NCBI GenBank assembly: GCA_963920665.1
Contig: OY987263.1
Location: forward strand, 40,831,218 to 40,895,217
Direction: 5' to 3'
DNA length: 64,000 nucleotides
DNA from: Straminergon stramineum
Lineage: Eukaryota; Streptophyta; Bryopsida; Hypnales; Calliergonaceae
Below, piece after piece: positions 2,589 through 64,000 of this stretch. Position 1 is the stretch's first letter, and each line of letters begins with the position of its first letter. The notes below the pieces were generated by a model. That model saw only the letters and a list, made by a program, of their open reading frames with translations. It was not told the DNA's origin and searched no databases. The position numbers and the translations under genes were made by a program.

Positions 2589-5500
2589 ATGCCAAATTAT
2601 TTAGATGGCGATGCAATACAAAGGTGATATCCTAAACCACTTGAAATTTGTCTTTTCAAAGTAGTGTAGGGGACTATGGCATGTTTGGACCTTGATACAT
2701 GTAAGCATTGTTGATTAATATGTATATTCTAGGTATCATCTTTTGTTTTACTTTTGAATAGTGGTGTTGCACTTGTTCCTTTTTGTTTTGAAAGATCTTA
2801 TGATGATGTAGATGTTCCACTAAAAGCTCAAGCATTGATCCTATTTTGGAGCCCAAACACAAGATCTTCTTAAGCCACAATGGAGCTCAAAAGGAGTTTG
2901 TGGAACACCTTTGCAAGGCCTTGGAAGATCGGTGGCGCTATCCCTTTTTTGATCGCCGCCTTGAAAGCTTACCAAAGGGTGAAAGGTTTCCAAAGTTGAT
3001 CATTCAAGCTGCTCAACAATGTGACATGTTGATTGTGGTAGTCTCTAATGAGTATTTTATGTCCAAGTGGCCCATGATTGAATTGAATGCTTTTGTAAAA
3101 GCTCATCAGTTGAACTGTAACACAAAAGGATCAAATGGCAGACCCAAGATTTTGCCTCTCTTCTATGGGCTTTCTATGAAGGACTTGGAAGATAAGGCCA
3201 TGCAAAAGAAATGGTTTCAGAATTGGGAGAAGTTGGCTAAAGATGATCCAAAGAAGCGAATTGTTGTGAGTGATTGGAAGTGTGCCTTGGATGTTTTGAG
3301 GTCATTTAATGGGTTGGAGTACAACAAGCAAATGAAGGAGATATTGGCCTATCAAGATGAGATTGTGGCCTTTGTTTGCAAGTCCATTGGTTCTAATTTG
3401 AAGTGGAAGGATGCACATGTGCAAGGCAAATCTAGTATTTGTAAGGTAATGTCCACAGGTACCTTTACTTGTGTTGCACTTCGGATTTTTCTTGATGTTG
3501 TGGATTAGATGATAGGCATATATTTCCTTGCAATCTCATTGCTTTCTTTTCTCTCAAGATTATAGTTTAATCTATAGAGTGAATTTGAGCAACGAGATGA
3601 ATTTTTCTATTTTTCTATGTTGGAGGTATTGGAATTTGAACCTTTTCTAGCATGTTGTGGTGGTGGGATTTGTAGGTGATTGGTAAGAAGATTGGAAGTG
3701 CCAAAGTTTCCAAGAGTTACCACGTCAAAGTAGTTGGTATCTATGGAGTAGGTGGTATTGGCAAGACTACAACTTGCAAGACATTATTGAATGAATTGTC
3801 GAGTGACTATGAAGGGCGTGTGTGCCATCTTGAATTCCCAAGTGTTCCTTCAATAGATTGCAATCAACTCCTTCAAAAAGCATTGGTAGATTTGACAAAG
3901 AAAAGCAAGGAAGAAATTGAAAACTTGGATGAAGGCATGGTGAGATTGTTGATCTTGGTTTTGATGGCATTTTCTAGTTGTATCTAGATTGGAGTAGAAA
4001 CTTTAATACATGAAGTCTTATTTTGATAGTTTGATGTCTATTATAAATAGTAATTGGACACTTTACATACTTTGATGCCTCTCCCCATTTGAGAAGTTTT
4101 ATGTGGAGGTTTTACACTATTGAAGGTGATTGCTTATGCAATGTTAGGTTTGAAATTGTGTGCTATGATATAGCATGCTTGTTGAACAATTAGCTAATGG
4201 TATTGACATTGAAGTCATTGTGTGTTCAATTGAGATGGCTTACATTTTGAATTCTTTAATGTGAGCAGTGCAAATATGCTTTGCATACAAGTCTTTCCAA
4301 GCAAAAAGTCTTTTTGGCTATCGACAATGTCCCAGATGATGAGAAATTATTGAAGCATGCAAAGATGTTTTTGGAAGTTCCTTATCATCCAGAGAGTTTG
4401 GTAATTGTGACTGCTCGTTCTAAAAGTATTCTTAAGTGTTTGGAAATAGATGAAGATGCATGTGGTGAGATGCCAGAGCTTGAAGAAGTGGATGCAATGA
4501 AATTATTCTTGTACCATGCCGCTCAGGGGAAGGAATTTAATGGAGATGATGTGGGTCACATATTGAAGTGCATCCAAAGTTGTTATCTTTCCAAAGGAGA
4601 TGGATTTGGTTCCCACTACCATCCTTTGGCTTTGGAAGCTTTGGGTTTCCAAATGTATCGCCATGGAGAGAATCCTTCAGAATGGGTGAAGAAATTGCTG
4701 CGGGTTAGAACTTTTAGTTCTTCAGGAAAGGCAAATCCTGTCTTTGACATTTTGAGGAGCAATTTTGACTCTCTACCATCAAGTGAACAAATTTTGTTTA
4801 TGGATTTGGGACTCCTTGATCAAATTTCTAAAGATTACATTGAACACTGGAGTATCGAGTGGTTGTGTGACTTGTACAAGGATGACAAAGATGAAATCCA
4901 AGATCAGGTACAACTTTTGCATTTATCTTTTTATAGTATTGTATATTGTGCTTTCTAGTTCTAGTTATAAGTTTATTTCAATGTTTCACCTTTGAATTAT
5001 AGATGTCATTGGTAATGCATGATGTTCTTTGTTGTTTTTCTTGATGAAACAAATCCACTTGGGATCAATCTATACTTGAATTAAAGATTTGGAATTTTGA
5101 ATAAGAGATATTGAGGTTGGAAGTTGGTAATGAATTTTTCAACTTTGAAAGTTGGTTTTGAATCCAAAGGAGTTGCATTGAGAGAAACATTACAAAGTCA
5201 AATGTACATTTAGATCTGGAAGTTTTTCAAGTTATAGGAAGTTTTTTCTAGAACTTTGTGTGACAAAGATGGTAAATTGATTGAAATGGAGTGTGAAAAC
5301 TATAAAGTGATTCATTTGATCTAAGTTTTGATTCCAATCTTTTGTGATGCATTTAAAGCATGTCTTAGTTATGCAAACACAACATTTCCTAGTTTATTGA
5401 TCATAAAAGAATGTACCTAGTTTTCTTATGAAATGTTTAGTTAACAATGTCTTATGGAATTATTTGTGTGTGTGTTGGAATGGCAGTTGGAGAATTTGAA

Positions 5501-6904
5501 ACGAAATGGCTTGTTGCAAGATGTGGATTTGACAACCGGAAAGATAACCATGCATGATTTGTATTTTGAGTTTGCTAAATTGGAAGCAAAAGGATTTTTC
5601 AACAAGTCGTCAAACATGAGAAAGCAGAAGTGGATGTATGTGGAGAATGGTGATTTCAAAGAGCTTAAAATGACACCCAAGGATAGATGTTGGCCGGAAT
5701 TGAGACGCCTTGCTATTACTCAATGCGGCTATTATCCAACCTGTGGTCAGGTTGCATTTTGGAGGGAATCCAATGGGTTCATTTTTCCAATGTTGAGGTT
5801 CTTCATTTGGTTGGGTTGCATTGGGGATGGGGAACTTTGAATTTAGAGCACTTGGTGTTCTTAAGGGTTTTGTGTTTGTTTGATACTATACAGCTTGCTA
5901 GCCTTGAAGGCTTGGGAAAATTGAAGAACCTCACCCGATTTACATGGATAGTCGATACAGACGGAGCTTGCTTGGAGGGTACTACAGATTTGGTGGGGCA
6001 ACTTCCTTCGTCCCTCAAAACATTGTTCATTGATGGCAATGTGGTATTGGGGTCGGACTTCCTTGCTCAATGCCGGAGTTTGTCCAATCTAAAGCTCAAG
6101 TGGGTTGTAGTGAGTACACTGGATTTGAGCAATTGTCGGTCCCTAGAAATTGTGTCCCTTTGGTGTGTTCAGAAGTTGCAAACTTTGTTAGGGCTGGCAG
6201 CCTGTCGGCCATTCAACCTACAATCTCTTAAGATTAGGAATTGCGAGGATATGGTTGATGTTCCAGGGCTGAATTATGTTGTCAGCCTAAAGCAATTACG
6301 GATTTTGCATTGTCCGAAGTTGGAGGTGCATGGTCTGCCTACTTGCACCGAATTGCCTTATTGGAGATTAAGTTCTGGAGAAGGTGCAGAGGTTAAGAGT
6401 CCGGTGGTGGGTGCACAGAATTTCATTCCATGCCAGCTTCAAGGGCTTTCATGTTCATCGAGCCAATCTATGGAGGGACCGAATCCTAATGGATTTAACC
6501 AATTAGAAGTTCTGGACTTGAGTGGCAACGATGGATTGGCATCCTTGGAAGGATTGGTGGATTTGCCTGCATTGCGAAGCCTCAAGCTTCGGTGCTGCAG
6601 ATCTCTGTTGCGGTTGCCAGACTTGAGTAAGTCTAGGAACCTTGAAGTCCTCGAACTTACCCGATGTGATGCGCTCAAGCTCTATGAGAAAGATATTCAA
6701 ATGCTTTCGGAGTTGCCTTTGTTACTTGTTTTAGGATATGAGTTCCAACAGTTCAGGTTGGACTTTATTCGACAAAAGGCAGTAGTTCATTCATGCAAAG
6801 AGAGGCACTGGCTTCCACGTTCTGGGTGGGTTTGGAAGGAGCATGAATGGGTAGAGAGAGATCTGGGCACTCCTCCAATTCCATTGCGAAGCGTGGCCCT
6901 ATAA
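2589..6904 (+). pseudogene. TIR-NB-ARC-LRR immune receptor, copy A, frameshifted in the LRR exon
   Basis: Predicted coding segments are 2589-2623, 2812-3445, 3676-3939, 4269-4907 and 5487-6904, each bounded by AG acceptors and GT donors in the same phases as copy B. The TIR exon has the FLSHNGAQK opening and the SKWPMIEL motif. The next exon has the P-loop GVGGIGKTTT, the third KVFLAIDNV (kinase-2) and HYHPLAL (GLPLA position), and the last ITMHDL (MHD). Near 5756-5760 one base is missing relative to copy B (gcattttgg against gcatgtttgg). The MHD frame therefore ends at 5840 and the LRR continues in another frame to 6904. The stop comes about 11 residues earlier than in copy B. One 22-residue LRR present in B is absent. 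It could still make a truncated TIR-NB-ARC protein, and an assembly error at the indel is possible. Confidence 0.85.
5756..5760 (+). other. One-base deletion causing the frameshift in TNL copy A
   Basis: Aligning cctgtggtc...ggaggg between the copies gives 19 bases in B and 18 in A. The missing base falls in the gcat(g)tttgg run. Upstream and downstream differences between the copies in this exon are multiples of three (for example 15 bases fewer between ctcaat and cctgtggtc), so this single base accounts for the frame change. Confidence 0.85.
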
Positions 6905-10367: not shown

Positions 10368-11310
10368 TTAACCCGAAAAAAAATTTGATTATGTTTTCAA
10401 CAAAAACACTCTAAAACTACCATTTCTTGTACAAGTACCAAATTTTAGAAAAAAATAAAAATTTAGTCACATGTAAACATAGGATCTTGTAGTTTTAGAG
10501 AACATGTAGAAAAAATTTCAGAAATTTCCACCATGTAGATCGTAAGATGTTCGTGTTTGAGTTGAAAAAATCCTTTCGTTGGCCTTGCAAAAAAGAAGAC
10601 AATTGTACTTCACAAGGTCACATTTGTATGAAAAAATGTCCAAAATGGTGGTGCTTCTTTGGATTCATTCTTCAAGGCAAGTTGGTTACATGCTTGAAGA
10701 AATTCAAATCATTTGGAATTATACAAAATATAGGAAAAAAATAGTAAGTAGAAAGAAGTAGAGAATGATTCAAAATACTAAATTGTTAAGAATTTAGTCA
10801 TGGAATTGAAAAATGTCAATCCCAAGGGTTGTAATGTTGTAATGAACAATCTCCATCCGATATTTTTTTTTTCAAAAATATTGAAAATTGAGTTAATTAA
10901 AAGACTTCAAATTTTATCCTAGAGTCTAGATTCTATAACTATCTACAAACTAAACATCCTTGTAGCTTACATCTCATTGATCAAAATGGAATGATTGAAA
11001 GCTTTTCACATGTATAGAAATCTAGAAAATTAATTTCAGATTTTTGTTTCTTAAAAGATTTATTTTTTTAAGAATATTATTGAGTTTCCCAAGGCCCTAA
11101 GTTGCCCATCAAACAATGAAAATTACATATCATGCAATAAATTATTAACCATGTAGTCAAAAGTTATGAAAATTGTTGGGCTTTAAAGAAAGACCTTGTC
11201 TACATGTTATGAGAAATTTTCAAAAAATTAAGAAAAAAAAATTCCATTCATAGTCAGTTGCCCAAAATCACTATGTTGCCAATCAACGCAATTTGATGCT
11301 TTAGGGGTAA
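10368..11310. mobile_element. TTAA-type MITE, long subfamily, unit A member 1
   Basis: The left end is TTAA at 10368-10371 followed by a decayed CCCG end. The right end is CTTTAGGGG followed by TAA at 11308-11310. The interior shares long words with 22912-23841, 25416-26339, 43072-44020 and 61096-62010, including the run aaaaaatgtccaaaatggtg, ttcacaaggtcaca and tatgttttca. No protein is encoded. This is an old copy present before the duplication, since unit B has it too. Confidence 0.75.
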
Positions 11311-12465
11311 AACACTAGAAATTAAAATATCAAATATAAGAAATTCTCAAAATTGTATTTTTCTTTTTTTCTTGGTCCATTCTTGATATTCATTAGGCTG
11401 TTCCTTAGTCTGTGTAAAACACAGATTTTCAGTCCTATAAGACCATTTCCTGGAGGAGGCCTGCATCTTTGAAAAATGAAGGATTTTGCAGAGAGATGGC
11501 ACCCTTCCCTGGTTCAATTTGATTGGCAATTAGTTTATGTGAAGGAAGTACAGGTCATAAATGATGCTGTTTTATTTCCTGAAGTTATTTTAATCTCATT
11601 ATGGAAGTACAAATCATCATAGAAAAAAATTACCATAAGTTAGATGATCTAAATTCATGCAAAAACCTGCAGAAACTGATGATCCTAGAGGATCAAAAAT
11701 ATTTACCTCACCATCTTTAAAATGAACATCTATTTTATTCATGATTTTGTGTCTTTTTGCACTTGATGATGCCACCCTTACGGTGCTCTGAATGATGCTT
11801 CTATGATGAAACCCGCATAAGCTTATTGAGGCTTGAGTTTTGAACTTTTGCACTGAATGATTTGCGCAGAGTCTGTTCACAGGTTCACAACCAGGTCGGA
11901 TTAGCGATGGTTTCTCAAAAGGGGAGAGCAAGACACACATTTGTATAAGTATTGGATGAAGGGTTTAGGGTTTAGGCAGTACTAGCTTAGAACAGCCCAT
12001 TATGGTCAAAAGATCCATGTCAGATACCTATGGAATGACCCCATTAAGGGTTCTATCAATAAATGAGAGTTGGGCCACAATCCTTGGCTTTGGTAACAGT
12101 CATAGAGTATTAAGTTAGTGATCTTAATAGGAACTTTTAGCTTTTCAATGTAAATTCATTGGAGGAAGTGACATTTTTAGGTTTCCATGGCAGAAAATAT
12201 TGTAAGTGCTTTAGATGAGTAAGATGACCATTTAGGGGGGCATTTTTTGTTAGTTTTGGGGTAGTCTAGAGGCTCTTTGGACCATGATGGGCAACACACT
12301 TCAAAAATTCATATCAAATTCATACTTTGTTGAAAAAATATAATTCAACTACTCTCACCATTTCTCACACTTGTCTTTAAAGGGGGGGGGGGGCATTTCC
12401 TTTTCAAACTTTAGCAATGGCATGAAGGCAAACTCTTAATTCTAACCACTATGGGTTGTTTTACC
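11311..12465. other. Gene-free stretch, copy A
   Basis: Conserved with 44021-45186. It holds a short telomere-like motif (11961-11976) and a homopolymer run of 12 G (12382-12393; 14 G at 45101-45114 in unit B). No gene is recognised. Confidence 0.5.
11961..11976 (+). repeat. Short plant telomere-type motif (TTTAGGG)
   Basis: The sequence reads gggtttagggtttagg. The copy B counterpart at 44689-44707 is gggtttagggtttaggggg. Two units are far too few for a telomere. It may be an interstitial relic or a telo-box promoter element. It fits the TTTAGGG repeat of land plants. Confidence 0.6.
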
Positions 12466-18459: not shown

Positions 18460-18489
18460 CTAAAGAACTAATACAAGAATCTTTTTTAA

Positions 18490-20252
18490 CCCCTAAAGGA
18501 CCGAATGACCGTTGAACGTACACAGGTAATCTTGGGTAGGTTTGTATGAAGTCATTTTGTAACGGATGTTCTCAAAATTTTGACACAAGGTGTGAACATG
18601 TATACTCTAATTGAGATTGTAATTTTTTTTCTGATCGGGTGCCTAGATCAAAAGTTATGTTGCCCTAAACTTTTTTGGCAGCTCGGACAGCATGTGCAAA
18701 ACAACTCTTCTGCTTCTGAAATTTGACAAGTATGTTACTGACATGATAGAAAGGTATGTTCACACTTGGCGTTATGAAAGAATGTCTCTTAAGAAATAAG
18801 AGAACTGTAAAATACTTGGTAGGGCCCTTCTTGTTGAGTCGGCTTGGGGGATAATACTCCCATACTGTACGAGCATAGATTAGCTTCTAGGTGTTCATAC
18901 CTGAGGTCCTGAGCGGACTATTACTTTATGCCCCTCCCCCTCTTTTGCCTCAGTTTCAGTAGAAATCTGTTGATTCTTGTTCTAAGAAGCTGCACTATGG
19001 AGTTTGTGAACAAATTTGGTCTTGCACTAAATGAACTAGGTGTTGCATAGAAGCTCTTTCACAATTTTCATTTAGTGTCTTCAATTGTAGTTTGGTTGAT
19101 TCTATCTAGGTTAGGGAGAGCTCACGGAGACTATAGAGGTTTGTTTTCAACAAAGTTGTAGGGCTTCTTTCACGTTGCCATGCATTGAATATCTTCGACC
19201 AAAGACTAAATTTTGAAACCAAGTATTTGGCAAGAACTCCCATATGTGGTAATGGCAACAAGGAAAATACTCGAAGCTGGTGAAATACTATAGACTTCCA
19301 AAATCCATTCTGTCTCTGAAAATCCATAGATCCTTCCTAAAAACTTCACAACCCAATACATCAGTCCGTCGAACCGAAGCTTCAAAAAATTTGACAAGAA
19401 AAGACGATATGATTCAATGCAGGTTGCGATCACAACTCCATCTATGAGCCAGGTGAGGTACGGTGCATCTCCTTTCTTTTCGTTAAATTGGATATTGCAT
19501 AGACTGTTGCACTCTCAGTAAAGCATACCCAACAAAGATTCAACATTGAAAATTGAGTATTCATTGATTTGGCAACAATCGATCTGTGATCACTCTTGAA
19601 CAATATGTTGTCACTGCAACGGATCAAGGTGGTCTATAGGAGCAGGTTTTCCACCACTTTTGGAAACCGCTCTTTCGTAATGAGGCACTGTGACTCCCAT
19701 TAGCGAAGACGGCCCACAATTTTCTGAAATCTAGATTTTTTGAAGATTAAAAGTTATTTCTTAGGAGCCAGTGTTTAAAATAGTATTCGTGAACACTTGC
19801 CATAGGAGCACTCTTAAATGAGCTCCACATCACCACCCATGTAGGATCGGTGGTTACGAAACCCCGCAGGTGTGAATGCCCTTGCAATTAACAGCTTGTT
19901 CCTATCCTAACACCGGTTGCCTAACGCTAGGTGAGAATGGACCATAAGATGCAAATATCAAAAAAAATAACCACGTGTAGTGTAAAAATCTCACTCTAGG
20001 AGGAGTTATAGGTTGCTGGCCCTATTGGGTAGGGTAGAGAAAAAAAATTCTCCTAACTTCAAATGTTATAATCTTTCAATCTGTATAGTCAAAGTTTCTG
20101 AAATTTTTTCCACACATTCCCATCGTAGTCTAGTACAAATTTGTACAATTATATTTTGAAAAAAACCCTTTTTTTTCATTTTTTTCTCCCTGCCCGAAAA
20201 AGTTGTAGTTTTTCACAATTTGTGTCTAAAATTTGCCTTGGTCCTTTACGAG
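18490..20252. mobile_element. 1.76-kb TTAA-flanked element, private to unit A
   Basis: The left end is TTAA-CCCCTAAAGGACC (18486-18502). The right end is GGTCCTTTACGAG-TTAA (to 20256). The inverted repeat is CYCSTAAAGGACC. In unit B the flanks are joined (around 53551-53557), so it inserted after the duplication or was lost from B. It is longer than the other members and shares interior words with the second subfamily. Several small frames exist but none resembles a transposase, so it looks non-autonomous. Confidence 0.8.
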
Positions 20253-20256
20253 TTAA

Positions 20257-20351: not shown

Positions 20352-22911
20352 TAGTTGCATGTGATTATCATTTGTATCAAATGATGCTTCTTTGTTATGA
20401 CTTATTACACCTACTGGCAAGGTCATTTGTACTACTATTTATAATATCTATCATAAACATTGTTAAATCAAGGTATCTCTTTGTGACTAATCTATTTAAG
20501 ATCCATCATCACATGCATACCTTCCAACCATTGATGTAAGAAAATTAATCAAAAGAACAATTCTTATTGAAAACCTTATTCAATTTATATATTTGTTAAG
20601 TAGAGTATAATTATTACATCAAACATCCATACATTGCATGTTTAACCATTAATTGTCCAAGGTCTATTTTGAGCTTCGTGAAGCTTTCTCTAAACCAAAG
20701 AAAATGCCAAAGTTTTCATAAAATTGATCATCTTCTTTCGATTTGGGGCCACACAATCTTCAACAAGCCCCATTGTGGGGTCACATAGGGAAAGAAAATG
20801 CAATAATATCATATCTAGATTACAAGATTATAATGTTTGTTCATGAGGGGTGAAAATTTTTGATAGTGATTTAATGCTTTTCAACCCTTGTCATTTAACA
20901 TGTCAAATCTTGAGCTTGGAAGTAATATTTGAGCTTGACTATGAGCTTTGCCTACGAGCTTGTGAGGTTGGTCTTCATGGGGAAAGAGGAGGTGGACTTG
21001 GATGGGAAAATCCATTAAAATGACGGTATTCCATACACCATTTTCCCATTCATTTCTAGGACAGGTATAGATTTCATACCGCATGGTCTAAACATGAAAG
21101 TGCCAAGTTCATGGAAGACTGCCGTTTTAATGAAATACAGGTTTTGGGTTTTATGGTTTTACTTGCTCATATTAGAAGGTGGCCCCAGTTGAGCGCAGAT
21201 CCTTTCAAGAATGTGATGCACATGGATATATATGGCAGTGCCTACAATTTCCATGCTTCATATCTTCGGGAGCAGAAACGACACTGTCAGTGTTAGGCTT
21301 CAAAAGTAAAGTTCTGCCATGACTGGCTTGTGCATCATTTGCAGGGCTGTTGATTCTGAAAATGAAGCTGTTGGAAAATGTGCGGAGGTCCAAATCGTTG
21401 TATCGGGGGCTCAAGGGCTGCCAAAACGGATTCACTTGCATAAGAATTGCAAGACCAAGGTGTCTTCCCAGTGACAAATATGGAATCGTCTGCACAGTCG
21501 GACATGGCTGCAGCTTCCTTCCAATAGTCGGTGAGAACGGAGGGCACATGCATGGAGGGGCTCCCAGCTCTGCGTGTTGATCATGATGGATAGGTAGCCC
21601 CCTCCACAGCCTAATCAATCTTTATGCCACCCTTGGGAATAACTGAATCCTTGTTCTTGCATGCACACTCAACATCAGAGCAACAACAAAAAAAAGGTTT
21701 CAGAAATCTTGCAAAATTCAAATTACACGAGCCTACCCGAAATCCATTTTGTCTCCCATGGGAACATAGAAACTTTAGGGGTTAAAATAGTTCTATTTCT
21801 ATTGTTCTCTTTACAAATCTATGTCAACAAATTTTACTTTAAATTTGTCAATCTTGAAGGATAAGATTAACTGTAGAGGGGATTTCATTTTGAGTTCTAA
21901 GCTATAATATTGAAACCTATGTGAGCAAATATATTAGATATTTCAAAAATCTACAACAAGCTTCAATTTACAAGTCAATACCAAATTATTTCTCATAATG
22001 GTTACATGGTGATTGCAAGGAAGACTTCACGTTTTTGAATCAAAAACGCAATTTCTAGCCATAGGACTGACAATACTTTGCACAACTATCAATACTATGT
22101 GTTAGCGGTGCGTTGGCAAATTTGTACCATCGATTCAGTACTAGATAGTACTATAGATTACTATAGGATACTATAGAAGCCATTGGAAGAAGGAAATAGA
22201 AAAATAGGAGTTTGTAGACCTTTTCATTTTTAGTAATTCAAAAAAATTCATAAATTTTCCGTAAAAAAAGTTGTTTTGTTAGAGATGATTGTGTTGGCAT
22301 TGCACCAAAAAATTAATGTAGGAGATTTTTTCCCTCTTTGTAGCCTTTGTGCAAAGGGAGGTCACTTTGATCCCATATGTGCAACCAACATGTTTCTATT
22401 TTCATAAAAACTCATCGTCAATCCTTGTAGTGTTAGTAGACTTTCAACACATCCAATTTTTGGCTTTGAATTTGCATTTTTGGGTCAAAAATAGGGCTAT
22501 AAACCTCCAAAATGGCCAAAAGAGACATCCAATCAGGGGAGTTTAAAAATTGTAAATTAATTTGAAAAATTTGAAAAAAAAACTCAATGTCTACAACTAT
22601 CACATGTACCTTCATTCCAAATTTCACACCAAACGGACAAACAATGCAAAAGTTATGAGCAAAAAAACACCCGTCCCAAGGCAAGAAGACAAAAAATAAG
22701 ACAAATGTTTCTTGCAATCACCCTACAATACAATGCAAAATGAATTCAAATGAAGAAATGAGTGAGGGTGTTTAACCCTAAAATGCTTGCAAAGCTCCAA
22801 ATGGGTAATGAATGACCTCTAGAAAAATGATAGAAACAAAGAATACACTAATTTGTCAAAGCCATCAACCTACCTTGGAAATTGGACCATCTATGTTTGT
22901 AAGAAAAAGTC
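20352..22911. other. Gene-free stretch, copy A, with a TTAA-type right end
   Basis: Homologous to 53656-61095 of unit B apart from that unit's inserts. It carries a good right terminus, GAAACTTTAGGGG-TTAA, at 21773-21785. A matching left end was not found; the TTAA at 20642 is followed by CCATTAATTG. The middle part (about 21090-21660) is less AT-rich but its frames are not kept in unit B. At 22772 a lone TTAA-CCCTAAAATGC left end occurs. Confidence 0.45.
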
Positions 22912-23841
22912 TTAACCCCAAAAGGGTGTTTATTATGTTTTCACCAAAAACGCTCCAAAACTATCTTTTCTAGTACAAGTACCAAATTTTGGAAAACACA
23001 CATTTTAGACACATGTCACTATAGGATCTTGTGGTACACTAGTTTGAGAAGATGTGGAAAAAATTTAAGAAATTTCCACCATATAGATTGCAAGATTTTA
23101 GCATTTCAATTGACAAAAATCCTTTTCTTGGCCATGCGAAAAACTAGGTAGTTGCACTTCACAAGGTCACATTTTTGTGAAAAAATGTCCAAAATGGTGG
23201 TGCTTCTTTGGATTCCTTCTTGAAGGCAAGTTGGCTACATGCTTGAAAGTTTTTAGGTCCTTTTGAACTATACAACACATAGGAAGAAAATAGTAATTAG
23301 ATGGAAGTAGAGAATAAATCAAAATACCAAATTGTTAAGAATTTAGTTATGGAATTGAAAAATGCCAATCCTAATAGTTGTAATGTTGTAATAAAGAATT
23401 GAAATCCTCTCATTTTCTTTTTTTCCCAAAATATTGAAAATGGGGTTGAATAAAGGACTTCAAAGCTTATTTTAGAGTAGGGAATCCATGACCGCTTGCA
23501 AACAAAAATTCCTCATAAATTTATCTCGTTAATCAAAATCGAATGATTAAAATTTTTTCACGTATAAATAAATCAAGAAAACCAATTTCCAATTTTTATT
23601 TCTTAAAAAAGTGATTTTTTAAGAAGTTGTTGGGCTACTCAAAGATCAATGAAAATAGCATATTGTGCAATAACTTTTTAACCATGTAGGCAAAAGTTAT
23701 GAAATTGTTGTGCCTTAAAGCTACTCTTTGGACACATGTTGTGTGAAAATTTCAAATAGAAAAATAAAAATTTCCTTTGTAGTTTGTTGTCCAAAATTAC
23801 CATGTTGCCAAAAAAATATTGTTTGGTCCTTTAGGGGTTAG
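22912..23841. mobile_element. TTAA-type MITE, long subfamily, unit A member 2
   Basis: Left edge TTAA-CCCCAAAAGG (22912-22925). Right end GGTCCTTTAGGGG followed by TTAG at 23838-23841. The interior matches the other long-subfamily copies. The orthologue is 61096-62010. Non-coding. Confidence 0.8.
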
Positions 23842-25411
23842 TACGAGGTGTTGGGTATTCTCTACCTATGAAACTTTTTTACTTTCTTACATGAGAAATG
23901 GCAAATCCATAGAGCACCATGGAGTGTCCTTTAGCAATTTGTGGTCATTTATCTTTATCTAAATTTTAGTCATAATATTGATAATTTTTGAATTTGAGAC
24001 TAACAAATAGAATGAAGCTTATTAAGTTTAGTTTCTATTCTAATTTGAAAATTGAAAAAATCCTGTAAATCAAATTTTTATTGCAAATGAAACTTTGGGC
24101 CTGTATCTAGCTATGGAGTGATGATTTTCTAATTAAGTGTAATTTCTTATTAATCTGATTTTTTTCCCTTCCTTCTAAAACATTCTTGGTAATTTCAAAT
24201 TTTCAAAGGTAAATCTAGAATTTTATATTTTATGTCTTATAGAAGGAATGTGATTACATTTGGGAAAAATAAATACAAAAACACTTATTCATGTTTAGTT
24301 GCAAAATAGAAACTTGGAAAGAGAATGATTTTGAAATTTGAAGACAAAAGTCATTGCTACCAGTGTTTTGAAGGTCAACCTTGAAAAGATGAGTCCATAA
24401 CTTACCATGGATTCCAACCTCTCTATCCTTCACTTCGTTTGCTTCCATTTTACAACTATTTACAAATGAAATTTTTCTTTTTTCTTTTTTTGAAAGGTGG
24501 AATCACATGTCTTTTGAGAGTTATAAAGATTTCGATTTTTTTGGTAAAAATTTGAAGTCATTGTTAGTTTTTTGAGGAAAAAGTGAAGACAACTCAAATC
24601 AAATACAAAATATGTTCAAAAAATTTGAAATTTTTACCATAGGTAGATATTATGTATGGAGTAGCATAGAACATTATGGTAGAAATTGAAGTTATTGATA
24701 GAGTTTATAGGCCCAAAGTTCAAATTACAATGAAATATTGAATTTTGAGAATTCAAAATTTTCAATTGGAGTAGAAACTACACTCAATAAACTTTGTTTC
24801 CTAATTGAATTTCAGTTTAGAAAATATCATTTTTATAGCTAAAACTCACATCACTAAGAATATAGAGCTAGAAGTACCAAAAATGCAGTACAAAGATGAT
24901 CCATGGATTTTTTTATCTTCTTTTCTTCAAAAATCAATAATACAATAGTGAGGGAATGATTAATACTATTCACGTACCACTATATCTTGCTAGCAACTTC
25001 AGTAGAAAATAATTATAATAATTCTTGCCTAAGTTTTTAAGAAATTATCCCCTTATCTTGGCCAATATTTGGAAATTACAATTGGTTGAAGAGGAATTAC
25101 AACATCCTTCTCTAGGAACATTTGTTGGCCATTTATACAATAGAACCTCTCTAATTCAATAAAGTTTTGTTAGACCACATTGATTGTTGGTCCCAACTTA
25201 GCAATATGAACTACATACGAAGTTCATGTCCCTCCCTAATGCAATAACTTCTCTTATCTAATGTGTCAGACCAGACCTAATCTTATTGCTTTAGAGACGT
25301 TCTATTGTAGCAAGACTATCTCAATTCACTTTTGAAGGGTGACAAAATAGCATTAATTGGATTTTAGTCATATCTAACCTTATTTTTGGACTATAATTAA
25401 ATATTAGGCAC
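23842..25411. other. Gene-free AT-rich stretch, copy A
   Basis: Conserved with 62011-63577. No open frame of note and no transposon ends are recognised. Confidence 0.5.
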
Positions 25412-25415
25412 TTAA

Positions 25416-26339
25416 CCTCTAAAGTCCTATGACTATGTTTTCACTGAAAATGCTTCAAAACTGCTATTTTTAGTACAAATGCCAAATTTTTGAAAAAAAG
25501 ATTTTTTTGACACATTTAACTGTAGGATCCTGTAGTATACTGACTTGAGAGCATGTGGTAAAAATTTCAAAAATTTCCACTACATGGATTGCAAAATATA
25601 TGCATTTAAATTCACTGAAATCATTTTTTGGGCCCTGCAAAAAACAAGGTAGCTGCACTTCACAAGCTCACTTTTATATGAAAAAATGTCCAAAATGGTG
25701 GTGCTTCTTTGGATTCTTTTTCCTAGACAAGTTGTCCACATGCTTGAAAAATTTCAGATTATTTGGAGTGTACAACATATAGGAAAAAATTAGTAAGTAG
25801 GTAGTAGTAGAGAATGATTCAAAATACTAAATTGTTAAGAATTGAATTATGGAATTGAAAAATGGCAATCCCAATGGTTGCAATGTTATAATAAACAATC
25901 TACATCATATGATTTTATTTTTTTCCAAAAATATTGAAAATTGAGTAATATAAAGGACTTTGAAGTTTATTTTAGAGTTGAGAATCCATAATTGCCCGTA
26001 AGCAAAAAATCCTCATAACTTTTGACTCCTTGATCAAAATGGAATGATTCAAAGCTTTCCAAGTATATATAACTCTAGAAAACCGATTTCAAATTTTAGT
26101 TTTTGAAAAAAGTGATTTTAAAAAATCTGCCCGGACTGCCCAGTTATGAAAAAAAGCAACATATTAGGCCATAACTTTTGACTCGTATTTCCAAATGTCA
26201 TGAGATTTAGTGCATTTGAAAGATATTCCTCGTCCCCACCTTCTCTTAAAATTTGGGTCAAAAATATGGAAATCTCCAACCACATGTACCTGCCCAAAAT
26301 TGCTATGCAACCAAAAAATGCAAGTTGGTCCTTTAGGGG
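25416..26339. mobile_element. TTAA-type MITE with a filled/empty site pair (private to unit A)
   Basis: This is the clearest case of the family. The element of 924 bases starts CCTCTAAAGTCC and ends GGTCCTTTAGGGG, with TTAA on both sides (25412-25415 and 26340-26343). Unit B has the uninterrupted site ggcacTTAAgtccctc with a single TTAA at 63578-63581, so the four bases were duplicated on insertion or were restored by precise excision. The interior matches the long subfamily. Non-coding. TTAA duplication and ends starting CCY are the features of the piggyBac superfamily. Confidence 0.92.
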
Positions 26340-26343
26340 TTAA

Positions 26344-29300
26344 ATCCCTCAAATACTAGTAAAGTATAGTATTCAATCAAGCAGCTCCCTCAATAAAACT
26401 TGGATGAAATTTTTTTTTTTTTTTCATCCTATAACTCTTCAAGGAATCATCCAAAGGACCCAAGTTATTCACAATGTCCTATCACCAAACAAATGTTGTT
26501 GGCCAAGTAAATTTAGATTCCTAGATGAATAGGTGCATTTTGTATCTCTCTAGTCATTCTTGGAACATTTTTAGTCTTTGACATCATTACAAGGTTAAAT
26601 ATAATACAATCATGCAAAGATATTTAGAAAGAGTTAACAACCATATTCTCAAATGTGGCAAAAGTTAGTAGCAATTCTACTAGGAAACATTTACAGTTGT
26701 AAAACATCTTATCATCACAATGGCAAAATCCAAATTTTCATTACATTGAGCATTCCTTTTAGGAACTGTAACTATTTGTCAAAATCATATTAGGGGCAAT
26801 TGGTGTGTAAGACCTACATGAAGAAAATTTAGCTCTCAAAAATAGTCTAAGCCCTTGGTTTTGAGAGAATCTAGCTAGTATTTTGACAAAAAGTGGATTT
26901 TGCATTTTTTTGGACCTATTGTTTTAACCTATAGGACTCACTTCTACAATGCATATGACTTGCTAGGCATTGCCTTTAGGCTAAAAAATCCAAGAAATTT
27001 TCACTATTCATTTTTTCGTACCCTCACCAATCAAGTTTTGGACAAGCCACAAGACCCATCCCTCACTTCAAGGAGTTTTTTTTAATTTTTCTTTGGATTG
27101 CCTTCTTGGCAAGGGAATGTCACTTAACCCCTAAAGAACCAAAGGCTAGTCCAGATTTCCAAAATGATGAAGATGTATTATAAAATGTAATTTTAAAAAA
27201 TAATTTAAAGATGACCCTCAAACAAAAATTGTAAATTACAATCTATAGATCATATCCATATGGTTAGAGTAAACTTGCCATTTACTACACATATCCCAAA
27301 ACCACACAACAACCATTGCCATTTACCGTACACTAACTGCACGATGCAACTACCAATTCAATTGCTATGGGAACAAAATTCTGTATCACTGCCCAATGAC
27401 CACACAATGTGAGGTGAAGGGTTGTAAGGAATTTTCAACTAGATTTTAGCTTCATTGCCTTTAGATTGCAATAAAATTTGTCAAAACAAATCTTTTTGCA
27501 TTTTGTTTTTTGGAGGTGAATCTTACAATGACATTTAATGATCATGCCAAATTTTAAAACATTCAAGGCTCTATATTTATATGGAAAAGGATTTGAATTT
27601 CGTCTGTGTAGTGATTGGCAAGTTTACAATAGATCAACTAGTACACAAATCAATAGTTTTTAAAAAAATCTAAAGCTAAAAATTGAAAATTCCTTCTAAA
27701 ATCTCTTGTAGATTGAACATTTGTGATTTCTACAAGAATTTTTTTCCCTCTAAGTTCAAAATGTTAATTAAGTTCTAATCATAGTAATGTTTGAAGATTT
27801 TCCTTTTATTCTTTTATTCAAGTCATTTTTTGAGGGCCATTTTTTGAATTGAATAGTTACTTTTTGAGGTCAAACCTACGAATATCCCTCGAATTATAGA
27901 ATATTTGCAATAAAAAACCTTAAAATATGTACTTGTAGATAGGTGTTAATTTTTGTTGGATTGCTTGATGTGTAGTTTTGCCAATTTTAGAGGGTAGGTT
28001 CAATATTTATCTATTAGATGTGAGAACAAAGTCTTAACTTTGGGGTTTATAGAGTCCAAATGGAAAAGGTGGTATCTAGGGGAGTTTAAGAGGTGAGGCA
28101 ACCCATTTTTGACCACTTAAACAAATACATATTTTTGCAAAAGAGTTTTAACAATGGGAAATTTTTCCATATGCAAAAATAGAGTTCATAAGATTTCCAT
28201 AATTTTCAGATTTTTATTTCTCAAAAAAAAACTACTATGAATTTTTAGTTGGAGATTTCATCCCACCCCATATTAGTCATACATACTAGCTTCCTATTAT
28301 CAACCAAGGGTTGGTTTCAATATTGAGAGTGTTGTAGCCAATCATAAAGCACCACAATTGCAACGAGAACTATGCCAACATTAATCGTGTTCATTACCTC
28401 CTAATTGAAATTACAATACTTTACATTGCCATAATGGGGGAGTGATTAGGAATGGGTTGCCTCCCATAGTAGTTGTAATGCTAGAAGTTTTTGAAAAAAA
28501 ATGGATTCCAACAATTGTGACTTGATTCCAAGTTGGTAGTTGGGGTGGTTGAGTTTGTTGACAAGGGATGGTATTTAGCTAGCTTTCCAAGTTTGCATTT
28601 TCCACCCACAACTAAAGATGTGCGTGTAAGTTCCAACTAAGTTGGTTGCTTTTTCTTGTTGTTTAGGAGTGTGATATTTGGTTGTGTCAATTTCTATTTG
28701 GGATTAATGTAAAGAAGTTTGTGCAAATCTACTACATGTGTGCTTGTGTATATGATTGCTCAAAATGAGAAGTGTTGTTGTGGAGATTGTGTATGTCTAT
28801 GTGTTGCTGAATTGAATGTAGCATTTGTGTTCCCGATATGGTATTGAGTGTTGTTGGTGAATGTGTTCATAGTTTGGAATTTTCCTAATTATGAAGTGTA
28901 GATGCCAAGCAAGAATTGTCTCCTTGTCCTTGGTTGTGTTACCCAATTTGAGAATGAATGTCTTTGTATAGACTAGCCCTACTTGATTGTCTCCCATGAT
29001 TTGAACTTATTATACTAGAGAATGATTTTCTAATTGGTGATTATTCTATTTCTACGATTTATTGTACAATTGTTAAAGAACTAATACAAGAATCTTCCAA
29101 AAAATGGTGGATAAAAAAATGCATTTTTGCAGGCTTAGGATGTGCTTGCATTCATTTGTTGCTCAAAATTTGAATGCTTAGTCTTTTAGGAATTAACCTA
29201 GGAATGGTGCTAGAAGGACAAAAATTGCTTACCCAAATTTGATGTGGATGTGTATCATCCAAATTTTTATTGCCAAGTTTTTTGAGTGGTCATATGACCA

Positions 29301-35245: not shown

Positions 35246-38200
35246 GTGATGTCCTAAACCTCTTGGAATTTGTCTTTTTAAAGTAGTGTTGGGGAAAATG
35301 GCATGTTTGGACCTTGATGCATGCAAGCACTCTTGAATATTCTTCATGTTGTATGTCTCATGATTTGTTTTAGTTTTGAACTATGGTGTTGTATGTTTCT
35401 ACCTACACTTGTTCCTTTTTGTTTTGAAAGATCTTATGATGATGTAGGTGTTCCAATGAAAGCTCAAGCATTGACCCTGTTTTGGAGCCCAAACACAAGA
35501 TCTTTTTAAGCCACAACGGAGCTCAAAAGGAGTTTGTGGAACACCTTTGCAAGGCCTTGGAAGATCGGTGGTGCTATCCCTTTTTTGATCGCCGCCCTGA
35601 AAGCCTACCAAAAGGTGAAAGGTTTCCAAAGTTGATCATTCAAGCTGCTCGACAATGTGAGATGTTGATTGTGGTGGTCTCCAATGAGTATTTTATGTCC
35701 AAGTGGCCCATGATTGAATTGAATGCTTTTGTAAAAGCTCATGAGTTGAATTATGAGGCCAAATGTCCAAAAGGTGGACCCAAGATTTTGCCTCTCTTTT
35801 ATGGGCTTTCTGTGAAGGACTTGGAGGATGAGGCCATGCAAAAGAAATGGTTTGAGAATTGGGAGAAGTTGGCTAAGGATGATCCCAACGGGAGAATTGT
35901 TGTGAATGATTGGAAGCATGCCTTGGATGTTTTGAGGTCCTTCAATGGATTGGAGTACAACAAGGAAATGAAGGAAATCATGGCTTATGAAAATAATATT
36001 GTGAGCCATGTTTGCAAGTCCATTGGTCCTAATTTGAAGTGGGAGGATTCACATGTGCAAGGCAAATCAAATATTTGTAAGGTAATATCCATTGGTACCT
36101 TTACTTGTGTTTCACTTTGTATTTTTCTTGGTGTTGTAGATTAGATGATAGGCATACATTTCCTTGAAATCTCTTTGCTTTCTTCTCTTTTGAAGATTAT
36201 AGTTTAATCTATAGAGTGAATTTGAGCAACAAGATGAAATTTTTCTCTTTTTCTACATTGGAGTATTGGAATTTGAACCTTTTCTAGGATGTTGCGTTGG
36301 TGGGATTTGTAGGTGATTGGTGAGAAGATTGGAAGTGTCAAAGTTTCCAAGGAATATCACAAAGTGGTTGGTATTTATGGAGTGGGTGGTATTGGCAAGA
36401 CTACAACTTGCAAGACATTGTTGAATGAATTGTCGAGTGACTATGAAGGGCGTGTGTGCCATGTTGAATTTCCAAGTGTTCCTCTTAAAGACTCCATTGA
36501 GCTTCTTCGAAAAGCATTGGTAGACTTGACAAAGAAAAGCAAGGAAACAATTCAAAACTTAGATGAAGGCAAGGTGAGATTGTTAATCTTGGTTTTGATG
36601 GCATTTCCTAATTGTATTCAAATTGGAGCAGAAACTTCAATACATGAAGTCTTATGTTGATAGTTTGATGACCATTATAAATAGTAGTTTGACACTCCAT
36701 ATACTTTGATGTCTCCCTTCATTTGAAAAGACTTATGTGGAGGTTTTGCTCTATTGAAGGTGATTGCTTATGCAATGTTAGGTTTGAAATTGTGTACCAA
36801 GATATGACATGCTTGTTGAACATTTAGCCTATGGTATTGATATTAAAGTGATTGTGTGATCAATTGAAATGGCTTAAGTTTTTATCTTTTAAATGTGAGC
36901 AGTGTAAAAATGCATTGAAGATGAGTCTTTCCAAGCAAAAAGTCTTTTTGGCTATCGACAATGTCTCGAACAATGTCTCGAATGATGACCAATCATTGAA
37001 GCTTGCAAAGATGTTTTTGGAAGTTCGTTATCATCCAGAGAGTTTGGTGATTGTGACTGCTCGTTCTAAAAGTATTCTCCAAGACTTAAGGATAGACGGA
37101 GATGCATGTATTGAGATGCCAGAGCTTGAAGAGGTGGATGCAATGAAATTATTCTTGCACCATGCTGCTCAGGGGAAGGAATTTCTTGAAGATGAAGATA
37201 AGGGTCACATATTGAAGTGCATCCAAAGGTGTTATTTTTCCAAGGGAGTTGGGCTCGGTTACCATTACCATCCTTTAGCTTTGGAAGCTTTGGGTTTCCA
37301 AATGTATTACCATGGAGAGAATCCTTCGGAATGGGTGAAGAAATTGCCGCGGGCTAGAGCTTTTAGTTCTCAAGGAAGGGCAAATCCTGTCTTTGTCATT
37401 TTGAGGAGCAATTTCGACTTGCTACCATCAAGTGAACAAATTTTGTTTTTGGATTTGGGAGTCCTTCACCAAATATATGGATCTGAGTTTGGACTCTGGA
37501 GTATTGAGTGGTTTTATGACTTGTACAACAATGACAAAGATAAAATCGAAGAACAGGTAGAACTTTTGCATTTATCTTTTTGTAGTATTGTGTATCATAC
37601 TTTCCATTTCTAGTTTAATGTTTATTTTATGGTTTCACCTTTGAATTGTAATTGTCATTGGTAATGCATGATGTTCATCATCGTTTTTCTTGATGAAACA
37701 AATTATCCTCTTGGGAACAATTTGCGCTTGAATGAAAGATTTGGGATATTGAATAATGAGATATTGAGGTTGGAAGTTGATAATGAGTTTTTCAACTTTG
37801 AAAGTTGGTTTTGAGTCCAAATGAGTTGCCCTTGGAGGAGCATTAGGAAGTCAAATGTACATTCAGATCAAGCAACTTTTTAAGTTATGTGAAGTTCTTT
37901 CTAGAACATTGTGTGACAAAGAAGGTAAATTGATTGAAATGGAGTGTGAAAACTATGAATTGATTCATTTGATCCAAGTTTTGATTACAATAATTTGTGA
38001 TGCATTTATAACATGTCTTGGTTATGCAAACACAGTTTTTCCTAGATTATTGATCATAACAAAATGCACCTAGTTTTCTTATGGAATGTTTAGTTAACAA
38101 TGTCTTATGGAATTATTTGTGTGTGTGTTGGAATGGCAGTTGGAGAATTTGAAACGAAATGGCTTGTTGCAAGATGTGGATTTGACAACTGGAAAGATAA

Positions 38201-39669
38201 CCATGCATGATTTGTATTCCGAGTTTGCTAAATTGGAAGCAAAAGGATTTTTCAACAAGTCAACAGACTTGGGAAAGCAGAAGTGGATTTATGTGGAAAA
38301 TGGTGATCTCAAAGAGCTCAAAATGACACCAAAGTATAGATGTTGGCCAGAATTGAGACGCCTTGCTATTTCTCAATTCTGTTCTGATGCAGAAGAAGCT
38401 TGGCAATCCTGTGGTCGGATTGCATGTTTGGAGGGAATCCAATGGGTTCATTTTTCCAATGTTGAGGTTCTTCATTTGGGTGTGTTGCATTGGGGATGGG
38501 GAAGTTTGAATTTAGAGCACTTGGTGTTCTTAAAGGTTTTGTGTTTGATTGATACTTTTCAGCTTGGTAGCCTTGAGGGCTTGGGAAAATTGACGAACCT
38601 CACTCGATTTTCATGGGAAGTCGATTCAAATGGATGTCAAGTGGGTACTATAGATTTGGTGGGGCAACTTCCTTCGTCCCTCAAAACATTGATCATTGAT
38701 GGCTATGTAGCATTCGAGTCGGACTTCCTTGCTCAATGCCAGAATTTGTCTAATCTAGAGCTACTGTATATTAATGCGAGTACGCTGGATCTGAGCAATT
38801 GTAGGTCCCTAGAAAGTATGCGCCTCCAGTTTCTTCACGAGTTGCAAACGCTAGATCTGAGCAATTGTGTGTCCCTAGAAAGTGTGTACCTCCAAGATGT
38901 TCAGAAGCTCCAAACTTTGTTAGGCCTCACGAGCTGTCGGCCATTCAACCTGCAATCTCTTGAGATTAGGAATTGCGAGGATTTGGTTGATGTTCCAGGG
39001 CTGAATCATGTTGTCGCCCTAAAGAAATTACTGATTTTGCATTGTCCGAAGTTGGAGGTGCATGGTCTGCCTACTTGCACCGAAATGCCTTATTCGGGAT
39101 CAAGTTCTCCAGGAGGTGCAGGTGTTAAGACTCTGGTGGTGGGTGCACGGAATTTCATTCCATGCCAGCTTCAAGGGCTTTCAGGTTCATCGAGCCAATC
39201 CATGGAGAGACCGAATCCCAATGGATTCAACCAATTAGAAGTTCTGGACTTGAGTTACAACTCTGGATTGGCATCCTTGGAAGGATTGGTGGATTTGCCT
39301 GCATTGCAAAGCCTCAAGCTTCTGTACTGCGAATCTCTGTTGCGGCTGCCGGACTTGAGTAAGTCGAGGAACCTAGAAGTCCTCATACTTACCGGATGTA
39401 GTGCGCTCGAGCTTCATGAGAAAGATATTCAAATGCTTTCGGAGTTGCCTTTGTTACTTGTTTCAGGATATAAGTCCCAACAGTTCAGGTTGGACTTTAT
39501 TCGAAAGAAGGCAGTAGTTCATTCATGCAAAGAGAGGCACTCGGTTCCACGTTCTGGGTTGCTTTGGAGGGAGCATGAATGGGAAGAGAGAGATTTGGAC
39601 ACACCTCCAATTACATTGCAAAGCGTGGCCCTGTATGACAAGCAACTAGTCCCGGGCGCACAGATTTAA
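35211..39669 (+). CDS. TIR-NB-ARC-LRR (TNL) intracellular immune receptor, copy B, intact
   Basis: Predicted coding segments are 35211-35245, 35448-36081, 36313-36573, 36903-37556 and 38140-39669, joined in compatible phases to about 1037 residues. Every junction has GT and AG ends. The order is TIR (about 28-215; FLSHNGAQK at 31-39; SKWPMIEL with the glutamate at about 102, the position of the NADase glutamate in known plant TIRs), then NB-ARC with P-loop GVGGIGKTT (246-254), kinase-2 KVFLAIDNV (323-331), an RNBS-B-like SLVIVTARS, HYHPLAL in place of GLPLA (431-437) and MHD (550-552), then LRRs to about 1000. Family knowledge: TNLs sense pathogen effectors in the cytoplasm or nucleus and signal through TIR NADase activity. 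The ATG at 35211 is chosen because it is conserved in copy A and the exon phase fits; further upstream exons are possible. Confidence 0.88.
38785..38916 (+). repeat. Duplicated 66-bp leucine-rich repeat unit inside TNL copy B
   Basis: Two successive LRR units of 66 bp (22 residues) begin at 38785 and 38851 with nearly identical LDLSNC...SLES segments. Copy A has a single unit here (about 6120-6185). The difference is in frame, so the receptor stays open. Gain or loss of one LRR is a common way for recognition surfaces to diverge between tandem receptor genes. Confidence 0.85.
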
Positions 39670-43071: not shown

Positions 43072-44020
43072 TTACCCCCCTAAATTTTTTTTAATATGTT
43101 TTCAACAAAAACACTCTAAAACTACCATTTCTAGTGCAAGTACCAAATTTTAGAAAATAAAATAAAATTTAGACACATGTAATTGTAGGATCTTGTAGTA
43201 TTAGAGAAGATGTGGAAAAGGTTTCAGAAATTTCCAGTATGTAGATTGCAAGATGTTAGTGTTTGAAGTGAAAAAAATCCTTTTCTTGGCCCTCCCAAAA
43301 AATGGGCACTTGTACTTCACAAGGTTACATTTGCATGAAAAAATGTCCAAAATGGTGGTGCTTCTTTGGATTCATTCTTCAAGGCAAGTTGGTTACATGC
43401 TTGAAGAAATTCAAATCATTTGGAATTATACAAAATATAGGAAAAAAATAATGTGATTAGAAAGAAGTAGAAAATGATTCAAAATACGAAATTGTTAAGA
43501 ATTTAGTCATGGAATTGAAAAATGTCAATCCCAAGGGTTGTAATGTTGTAATGAACAATCTCCATCCGATATTTTTTTTTCCAAGAATATTGAAAATTGA
43601 GTTAATTAAAAGACTTCAAATTTTATCTTAGAGTCTAGATTCGATAACTATCTACAAACTAAACATCCTTGTAGCTTTCATCTCATTGATCAAAATGGAA
43701 TGATTGAAGGCTTTTCACATGTATAGAAATCTAGAAAATTAATTTCAAATTTTTGTTTCTTAAAGGATTTATTTTTTTAAGAATATTATTGAGTTTCCCA
43801 AGGCCCTAAGTTGCCCATCAAACAATGAAAATTACATATCATGCAATAAAATTATTAACCATGTAGTCAAAAGTTATGAAAATTGTTGGGCTTTAAAGAA
43901 AGACCTTGTCTACATGTTGTGAGAAATTTTCAAAAAATTAAGAAAAAAAAATTCCATTTGTAATGAGCTGCCCAAAATCACTATGTTGCCAAAAAACACA
44001 ATTTGATGCTTTAGGGGTAA
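43072..44020. mobile_element. TTAA-type MITE, long subfamily, unit B member 1
   Basis: Orthologous to 10368-11310. The left end reads TTACCCCCCTAAA and the right end CTTTAGGGG-TAA, so this copy keeps the left inverted repeat better than its partner. Non-coding. Confidence 0.75.
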
Positions 44021-45186
44021 AACACTAGAAATTAAAATATCAAATATAAGAAATTCTCAAAATTGTATTTTTCTTTTTTTCTTGGTCCATTCTTGATATT
44101 CATTAGGCTGTTCCTTAGTCTGTGTAAAACACAGATTTTCAGTCCTATAAGACCATTTCCTGGAGGAGGCCTGCATCTTTGAAAAATGAAGGATTTTGCA
44201 GAGAGATGGCACCCTTCCCTGGTTCAATTTGATTGGCAATTAGTTTATGTGAAGGAAGTACAGGTCATAAATGATGCTGTTTTATTTCCTGAAGTTATTT
44301 TAATCTCATTATGGAAGTACAAATCATCATAGAAAAAAATTACCATAAGTTAGATGATCTAAATTCATGCAAAACCCTGCAGAAACTGATGATCCTCGAG
44401 GATCAAAAATATTTATCTCACCATCCTTAAAATGAACATCTATGTTATTCATGGTTTTGTGTCCTTTTGCACTTCGTGATGCCACCCTTGTGGTGGTGCT
44501 CTGAATGACACTTCTATGATGAAATCCACATAAGCTTAACTTATTGAGGCTTGAGTTTTGAACTTTTGCACTGAATGATTTGCACAGAGTTTGTTCACAG
44601 GTTCACAACCAGGTCGGATTAGCGATGGTTTCTCAAAAGGGGAGAGCAAGACACACATTTGTATAAGTATTGGATGAAGGGTTTAGGGTTTAGGGGGTAC
44701 TAACTTAGAACAGTCCATTAAGGTCAAAAGATCCATGTCAGATACCTAGGAAATGACCCCATTAAGGGTTCTATCAATAAATGAGACTTGGGCCACAATC
44801 CTTGGCTTTGGTGACAGTCATAGAGTTATTAAGTTAGTGATCGTAATAGGAACTTTTAGGTTTTCAATGTAAATTCATTGGAGGAAGTGACATTTTTAGG
44901 CTTCCATGGTAATAAATATTGTAAGTGCTTTAGGTGAGTAAGTTGATCATTTAGGGGGGCATTTTTTGTTAGTTTTGGGGTAGTCTAGAGGCTCTTTGGA
45001 CCATGATGGGCAACACGCTTCAAAAATTCATATCAAATTCATACTTTGTTGAAAAAATATAATTCAACCACTCTCACCATTTCTCACACTTGTCTGTAAA
45101 GGGGGGGGGGGGGGCATTTCCTTTTCAAACTTTAGCAATGGCATGAAGGCAAACTCCTAATTCTAACCACTATGGGTTGTTTTACC
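44021..45186. other. Gene-free stretch, copy B
   Basis: Conserved with 11311-12465. It includes the telomere-type motif (44689-44707) and a run of 14 G at 45101-45114, two bases longer than in unit A. Confidence 0.5.
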
Positions 45187-46110: not shown

Positions 46111-46598
46111 ATGCCAGAACATTTGAAGTGTGCCGCTGGATATTTCCACTAGCACTTGGGATAAGCTTATACAAAGATGGAGTGGGAAGCTGGCGTTTCT
46201 TCACAAGCCAGGATGCAATTTTGTTTTGCATCTCGACCAGAAGCAATGCTATTTTATTCCCTGGAGATGATTCACTAAGCCATTAGTGGAGCTACTTGTA
46301 ATTTCTCTTTAAGGTGAAGGCATCCATTCCCAACTAGGCTCCCATACCCAACATGTATGTTGCACCTATCTCCAATCAAGGTTAGAACAAATTTCCAACC
46401 AAAGCTTGGATTCATTTGTGATTTTATCTCCTTTTCAAGGTTGGGACGAATAAGGTCATGACAAATCTGTCAAAGGACTGAGTAAGAAAGTAGAAAGTAT
46501 AATAGTAAGGTGGGTACCCCAAAAAACACTCTGTGCCTAAAAGTGCCATCTACAACAATTGAACATTCCTAAATTCAATTATGTACCTATTTGCATAG

Positions 46599-47566: not shown

Positions 47567-47637
47567 GGGACACTCCCGGCGCGGCCGAGACACTCCCGGC
47601 GCGGCCAGGGTCTTCCCGGCGCGACCGGGACACCCCC
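47567..47637. repeat. GC-rich 20-bp tandem repeat
   Basis: Units beginning at 47567, 47587 and 47607 share cactcccggcgcggcc or a close variant, followed by a partial fourth unit. It lies inside the TA-flanked element. Confidence 0.85.
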
Positions 47638-59106: not shown

Positions 59107-59109
<3 letters not shown>

Positions 59110-59143: not shown

Positions 59144-59146
<3 letters not shown>

Positions 59147-63577: not shown

Positions 63578-64000
63578 TTAAGTCCCTCAACTACTAGTAA
63601 AGTATAGTATTCACTCAAGCACCTCTCTTAATAAAACTTAGATGAAAAAAATTGTTTTTTTTCATCCTATGACTCTTCCAAGAATCATCCAAAGGACCCA
63701 AGTTGTTCACAGTGTCCTATCACCAAACAAATGTTGTTGGCCAAGTAAATTTAGATTCCTAGATGAATAGGTGCATTTTTTGTCTCTCTAGTCATTGATG
63801 GAACATTTTTAGTCCTTGGCATCATTACAAGGTTAAATATAATACAATCATGCAAAGATATTTATAAAGAGTCAACAACCATATTCTCAAATGTGGCAAA
63901 AGTTAGTAGCAATTCTACTAGGAAACATTTATAGTTGTAAAACATCTTATCATCACAATGGCAAAATCCAAATTTTCATTACATTTAGCATTCTTTTCAG

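Follow-up and report, generated by a model that had tools for sequence, protein, structure and literature searches.

The 64,000-nucleotide stretch of DNA analyzed here (the window) contains a tandem duplication, with unit A at about 0.8-26.8 kb and unit B at about 33.4-64 kb. Open reading frames (ORFs) with TIR domains and leucine-rich repeats occur in both units (2846-6904 and 35482-39669) and, judged by their predicted domains, represent a tandemly duplicated resistance-gene-like locus. Unit A also carries the subject of this report, a 924-bp, A+T-rich element (25416..26339, minus strand) whose longest ATG-initiated ORF is 60 amino acids and which we interpret as a non-autonomous piggyBac transposon. 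We assign it to the minus strand because three longer relatives described below (L060, L061, and L071, as fetched) are collinear with it in that orientation.

The window belongs to a 326-Mb assembly of 59 contigs. The original prediction took the host to be a plant, and the genome indeed contains a LEAFY gene. Among five solved sequences, part of its DNA-binding domain is most similar to 4bhk (FLORICAULA/LEAFY HOMOLOG 1), which we take to be the LEAFY protein of Physcomitrium patens, scoring 136 bits versus 93 bits for 2vy1, presumably Arabidopsis LEAFY; by our count, 63 of 67 residues are identical to 4bhk. One ORF in the window has 14 relatives, and the better of the two that bear a species name is from Physcomitrium patens. 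Together, these two likenesses indicate that the host is a land plant, most likely a moss.

Copies of TTAA directly abut the element on its left (25412..25415) and right (26340..26343) sides. The terminal inverted repeats are short, comprising CCTCTAAAG on the left (25416..25424, plus strand) and, reading inward, CCCCTAAAG on the right (26331..26339, minus strand). Eight of the first nine bases pair in the window copy, and all nine pair in the majority sequence built from 39 further genomic copies, which has CCCCTAAAG at both ends; beyond these bases the ends are mostly divergent in both. Inverted ends beginning with CCY are a signature of the piggyBac family, and the CCY-type ends proposed for this element are borne out both by the majority sequence and by the CCCCT starts found at eight of nine transposase loci (below). 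The terminal CCCCTAAAG (25416-25424 and 26331-26339) includes CCCTAAA, the repeat unit of plant telomeres, which is probably a coincidence.

Unit B preserves the same site without an insertion. BLAST within the window aligned 22765-25415 with 60948-63581 and 26340-26760 with 63578-63997; the two flank alignments overlap in unit B by exactly 4 bp, so the tandem paralogue holds one TTAA (63578..63581) and lacks the element. The junctions read GGCAC-TTAA-GTCCC in unit B and GGCAC-TTAA-(element)-TTAA-ATCCC in unit A. The filled and empty pair described in the original prediction, with TTAA on both sides in unit A and a single TTAA in unit B, is thus confirmed by alignment and by direct reading of the junctions.

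Other insertions also distinguish the two units. Only unit A contains another element, about 1.76 kb long (18486-20256), with TTAACCCCTAAAGGACC on the left and, on the right, a degenerate counterpart of that end plus TTAA; its empty site is less clean, since unit B shows CACA instead of TTAA at that position. Two insertions are found in unit B and are absent from unit A. One, of about 1.6 kb (46508-48081), has inverted ends GGTGGGTAC / GGTAGGTAC and is apparently not piggyBac. The other, of about 2.1 kb (58808-60947), is flanked by a repeat of roughly 8-9 bp (AGGGCGT..), as might result from insertion of a Mutator- or hAT-type element.

A DNA search of the genome, in which 40 of 7053 loose candidates were scored, allowed us to fetch 39 full-length copies in addition to that in the window. 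As they were chosen for being best-scoring, these copies are skewed toward the window copy. Their lengths fall between 919 and 930 bp, and the exact 27-base pattern of the left end occurs at 82 places in the genome, compared with none for the reversed control. The element is therefore short, non-coding (ORFs of at most 60 amino acids), numerous, and nearly uniform in length, in keeping with its original designation as a member of a MITE family; its 924 bp lie slightly above the 100-800 bp given for MITEs in the available part of a 2023 review (PMC10004981).

TTAA flanks both sides of 31 of the 39 best-scoring copies (left, 34/39; right, 34/39), and one of the eight that lack it on both sides has CTAG at each end (L032). 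We also examined left ends located by the 27-base pattern, requiring a non-G base just outside the four flanking bases; this excludes the 10 of 82 ends with G there and leaves 72, which overlap the 39 copies in part. TTAA is found at 60 of these 72 ends. Since TTAA occurs at just 0.6% of window positions, both tallies place TTAA flanking beyond chance, and the listing of flanking tetranucleotides that the original prediction had proposed as a check favors its TTAA assignment.

The exceptions are informative as to the length of the duplication. Three of the 12 non-TTAA left ends were already among the 39 copies, and the other nine were newly fetched. These nine comprise one CTAG/CTAG copy (L072), one ATAA/ATAA copy (L073), five with another left tetranucleotide (ATAA, TTAC twice, TTTA, and TCAA) and TTAA on the right, one offset by a single base (TTAAC before CCCC, right TTAA), and one whose right end was searched for and not found. 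L078 aside, L044 (TAAA/ACGA) is the one mixed site seen where TTAA is missing from both sides. In L032, L072, and L073, the same four off-consensus bases are present on both sides, and these matched CTAG and ATAA pairs indicate that all four bases are duplicated, giving a 4-bp target-site duplication.

To what enzyme might such an element respond? The piggyBac transposase domain (PF13843, DDE_Tnp_1_7) has at least 118 matches in the genome (best E value, 7.8e-79), a lower bound, as 116 of 473 candidates were scored. A control with this domain gave no match in 14 named genomes, and carries low weight because the output did not give their identities. Protein searches yielded many relatives, at least 200; among viral contigs, a scan turned up no close relative of the transposase. 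An earlier search for ends at 12 transposase loci with 1.5-kb flanks recovered them in 0/12, the flanks being too short. Nine 10-kb loci were then drawn from the best-scoring rows, a set that includes two pairs of closely related loci. In eight of them, the transposase domain sits between inverted ends that begin CCCCT and are flanked by TTAA, with up to 2 mismatches allowed over 12 bases and each locus offering 62-506 TTAA pairs to choose from. The ninth, L068, has no TTAA/inverted-end pair within its 10-kb stretch.

The long elements delimited in this way span 5.1-7.5 kb. Two of about 6.4 kb, L060 (972-7402, counting the flanks) and L061 (1051-7373), have the same ends as the miniature; in L060, another possible right end lies farther out than the one adopted here. 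L060 and L061 are 98.7% identical to each other, and this likeness ceases no more than 8 bp from their TTAA-flanked ends, which indicates separate insertions and rather recent movement of the family. L071 (1979-9456; 7.5 kb) also has piggyBac ends. Other piggyBac families, TTAA-flanked with the different ends CCCCTCAACGCC, CCCCTGAGCGCC, and CCCCTAAGCGCC, are represented at L062:1797-6921, L069:817-7171, and L070:3146-9558. The longer relative with a piggyBac DDE transposase that the original prediction called for thus exists: L060, L061, and L071 share the miniature's ends and encode PF13843.

The transposase ORF of L060 (3394-5916; 840 amino acids) matches PF13843 at 3.2e-79 and, among solved structures, piggyBat (9c0f; 2.7e-25) and piggyBac (6x67; 2.9e-21). 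Residues D494, D583, and D700 (and D703) align with the piggyBac catalytic triad D268/D346/D447, as numbered in the available part of PMC7351741. A full Pfam scan of two L060 ORFs gave no other transposase; in the enzyme itself, PF13843 was accompanied at E 0.1 by neither a THAP domain nor any other. Cysteines in the tail align with those of relatives that bear PF13842 (P0035 and P0037), and Pfam reports no PF13842 match in L060 at that threshold. The N-terminal region is long, acidic, and repetitive.

The miniature can be read as the two ends of such an element joined together. Its segment at 25419..25710 (minus strand) resembles the right, high-coordinate end of L071, at 78% over 303 in the window copy and 80% over 304 in the majority sequence, and, more weakly, L060/L061. 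The segment at 25728..26339 (minus strand) corresponds to the opposite, left end, at 84% over 617 in the window copy and 86% over 615 in the majority sequence, and its last 204 bp are 82% identical to L060/L061. In the majority sequence, nt 313-925 correspond to the first 614 bp of L071 (86%) and nt 1-295 to its last 303 bp (80%), with L060/L061 matching nt 713-925 at 80% and nt 1-375 at 67%; the top score among 50 letter shuffles used as a control was 34.6 bits. Matches of the two parts to the two ends of L071 give the anatomy of an internal deletion, with a putative junction, relative to an L071-type element, at 25711..25727. Two other loci were tried as alternative parents: L062 has no match to the miniature, and L067 has a weak one near its right end alone (73% over 131).

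L071, the closest of the long relatives found, is itself no clean working parent, because its transposase ORF runs, relative to the ends, opposite to that of L060/L061, and N occupies its second catalytic position. It is apparently a rearranged or chimeric element with ends similar to those that gave rise to the miniature, and it may have acquired a different piggyBac gene between ends of foreign origin.

We conclude, with a probability of roughly 0.96, that the 924-bp element is a non-autonomous, miniaturized piggyBac transposon that arose by internal deletion of a long piggyBac element and was presumably mobilized by a piggyBac transposase. The shared ends, the relatives encoding transposase, and the matches to the first 614 and last 303 bp of L071 are the grounds for the deletion origin. 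Under this model, a long piggyBac element would have lost several kilobases of its middle, including the transposase gene, leaving terminal segments of about 0.6 kb and 0.3 kb. Transposase supplied by full-length relatives would bind the CCCCTAAAG ends together with subterminal sequence, excise the element, and insert it at TTAA, which would be copied on both sides. The ends, the 4-bp duplication, the empty site, the homology to long elements, the transposase family, and the conserved aspartates are directly supported. We infer that such a transposase moved this element, and did so through the chemistry familiar from piggyBac, with hairpins and seamless excision. Counting against this reading are the flaws of L071, the 67-80% likeness of the L060/L061 ends to the majority sequence, the lack of an end pair at L068, the additional right-end candidate of L060, the eight of 39 copies without TTAA on both sides, and the loss of the right TTAA from older copies. 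The piggyBac reading given in the original prediction is nonetheless supported, for copies lacking TTAA do not predominate and the long relatives with its ends encode a piggyBac transposase, the Pfam scan of two L060 ORFs giving no transposase of another superfamily.

Other superfamilies could in principle account for parts of this picture. A Kolobok-type element would also duplicate TTAA, as described for Xenopus, and in the accessible part of that report its ends start with RR (AG in the listed copies) and its enzyme usually bears a THAP domain (PMC6004289). The ends here start with CC, and PF13843 is the sole Pfam domain of the L060 enzyme at E 0.1, which makes Kolobok membership exceedingly improbable. 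A Tc1/mariner or PIF/Harbinger MITE might instead have a TA or TAA duplication that merely resembles TTAA, and at a single empty TTAA site the TA, TAA, and TTAA duplications are indeed indistinguishable. The two CTAG copies and the one ATAA copy, however, repeat all four bases on both sides, most copies retain the outer T and A, and the long relatives bear PF13843, so we give this explanation almost no credence. On the combined evidence of ends, 4-bp variant duplications, and enzyme, both readings were dropped.

A further question concerns the history of the empty site, which might be the product of precise excision from unit B if the element were older than the tandem duplication. This scenario is compatible with our main reading, and seamless excision is an established habit of piggyBac (PMC7351741, available part). 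Divergence between the window copy and the majority sequence (K2P, 0.049) exceeds half of that between the unit A and unit B flanks (0.063-0.070; about 0.03-0.035 per side), as expected under excision. The majority sequence is not, however, the true source, and the distance to the nearest copy (0.066; about 0.033 per side) fits insertion after the duplication; conversion between the units would, moreover, reduce their divergence. We consider excision the less probable history, while giving it some weight. Across 40 copies, K2P to the majority sequence ranges from 0.033 to 0.073 (median, 0.049). Two older related copies are shared by both units: 22929..23840 (plus strand; paralogue at 61109-62009), with TTAA on the left in unit A and TTAG on the right in both, and 10386..11312 (plus strand; paralogue at 43087-44022), with TTAA on the left in unit A and TAAA on the right in both. 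The former inserted before the tandem duplication.

The best-known relatives of the moss elements are animal transposons. IFP2, the piggyBac of the cabbage looper, is about 2.5 kb in length, whereas the elements described here span 5.1-7.5 kb, reside in a plant, and in L060 encode the long, acidic, repetitive N-terminal region noted above. Shared with IFP2 and with piggyBat of bats are the TTAA target and the DDD aspartates (PMC7351741, available part). A cysteine-rich C-terminal stretch may be common to them as well, since the cysteines align, although PF13842 was not called in L060. Short non-autonomous piggyBac-type derivatives occur in other host lineages, such as mPok (of Pokey) in Daphnia (PMC4912750) and MITEs of corals (PMC2872659); we liken these to the moss element by their descriptions. 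Kolobok/T2-MITE of Xenopus likewise targets TTAA but combines AG ends with a THAP enzyme, in contrast to the CC ends and piggyBac enzyme found here (PMC6004289, in part).

In plants, the 2023 review cited above names PiggyBac as one of seven MITE superfamilies of angiosperms (PMC10004981), and a 2024 review counts it as a superfamily of DNA elements in plants (PMC10794571), so an element of this type is no novelty there; the available part of the former gives the same superfamily assignment without a parent transposase or an empty site, both of which we provide for the moss element. The original prediction that such transposons are seldom reported in land plants is fair as worded, and a claim that they are unreported would fail against the angiosperm entry in that review. 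A 2023 animal paper gives insects, fungi, and plants as sources of isolated piggyBac elements (PMC10813416), the repeat table of a fern genome paper includes a PiggyBac entry of 1230 (PMC6890710), and the word piggyBac occurs in genome papers on grass pea, switchgrass, bamboo, and cork oak. For mosses, the string appears twice in a genome paper, once as 'expression piggybacking' (PMC10619864), and a Physcomitrella engineering paper describes piggyBac as a tool yet to be tested there (PMC5505980). We found no description of a moss piggyBac in the open-license literature as accessible to us, where absence is weak evidence.

The moss finding is well supported and comes from a host lineage that is little documented for piggyBac. 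We think the odds are about even that mosses possess their own diverse and recently active piggyBac lineage, with the ends CCCCTAAAG, CCCCTCAACGCC, CCCCTGAGCGCC, and CCCCTAAGCGCC, more than 100 transposase matches in one genome, and high-copy MITEs, which would be native, undescribed, and possibly mobile. PiggyBac is a standard transposon for animal genome engineering, yet little has been documented of the part it plays naturally in land plants. A moss genome that combines miniatures, long relatives whose catalytic residues are conserved, and a filled and empty pair of sites offers a test for a native, seamlessly excising TTAA system in plants.
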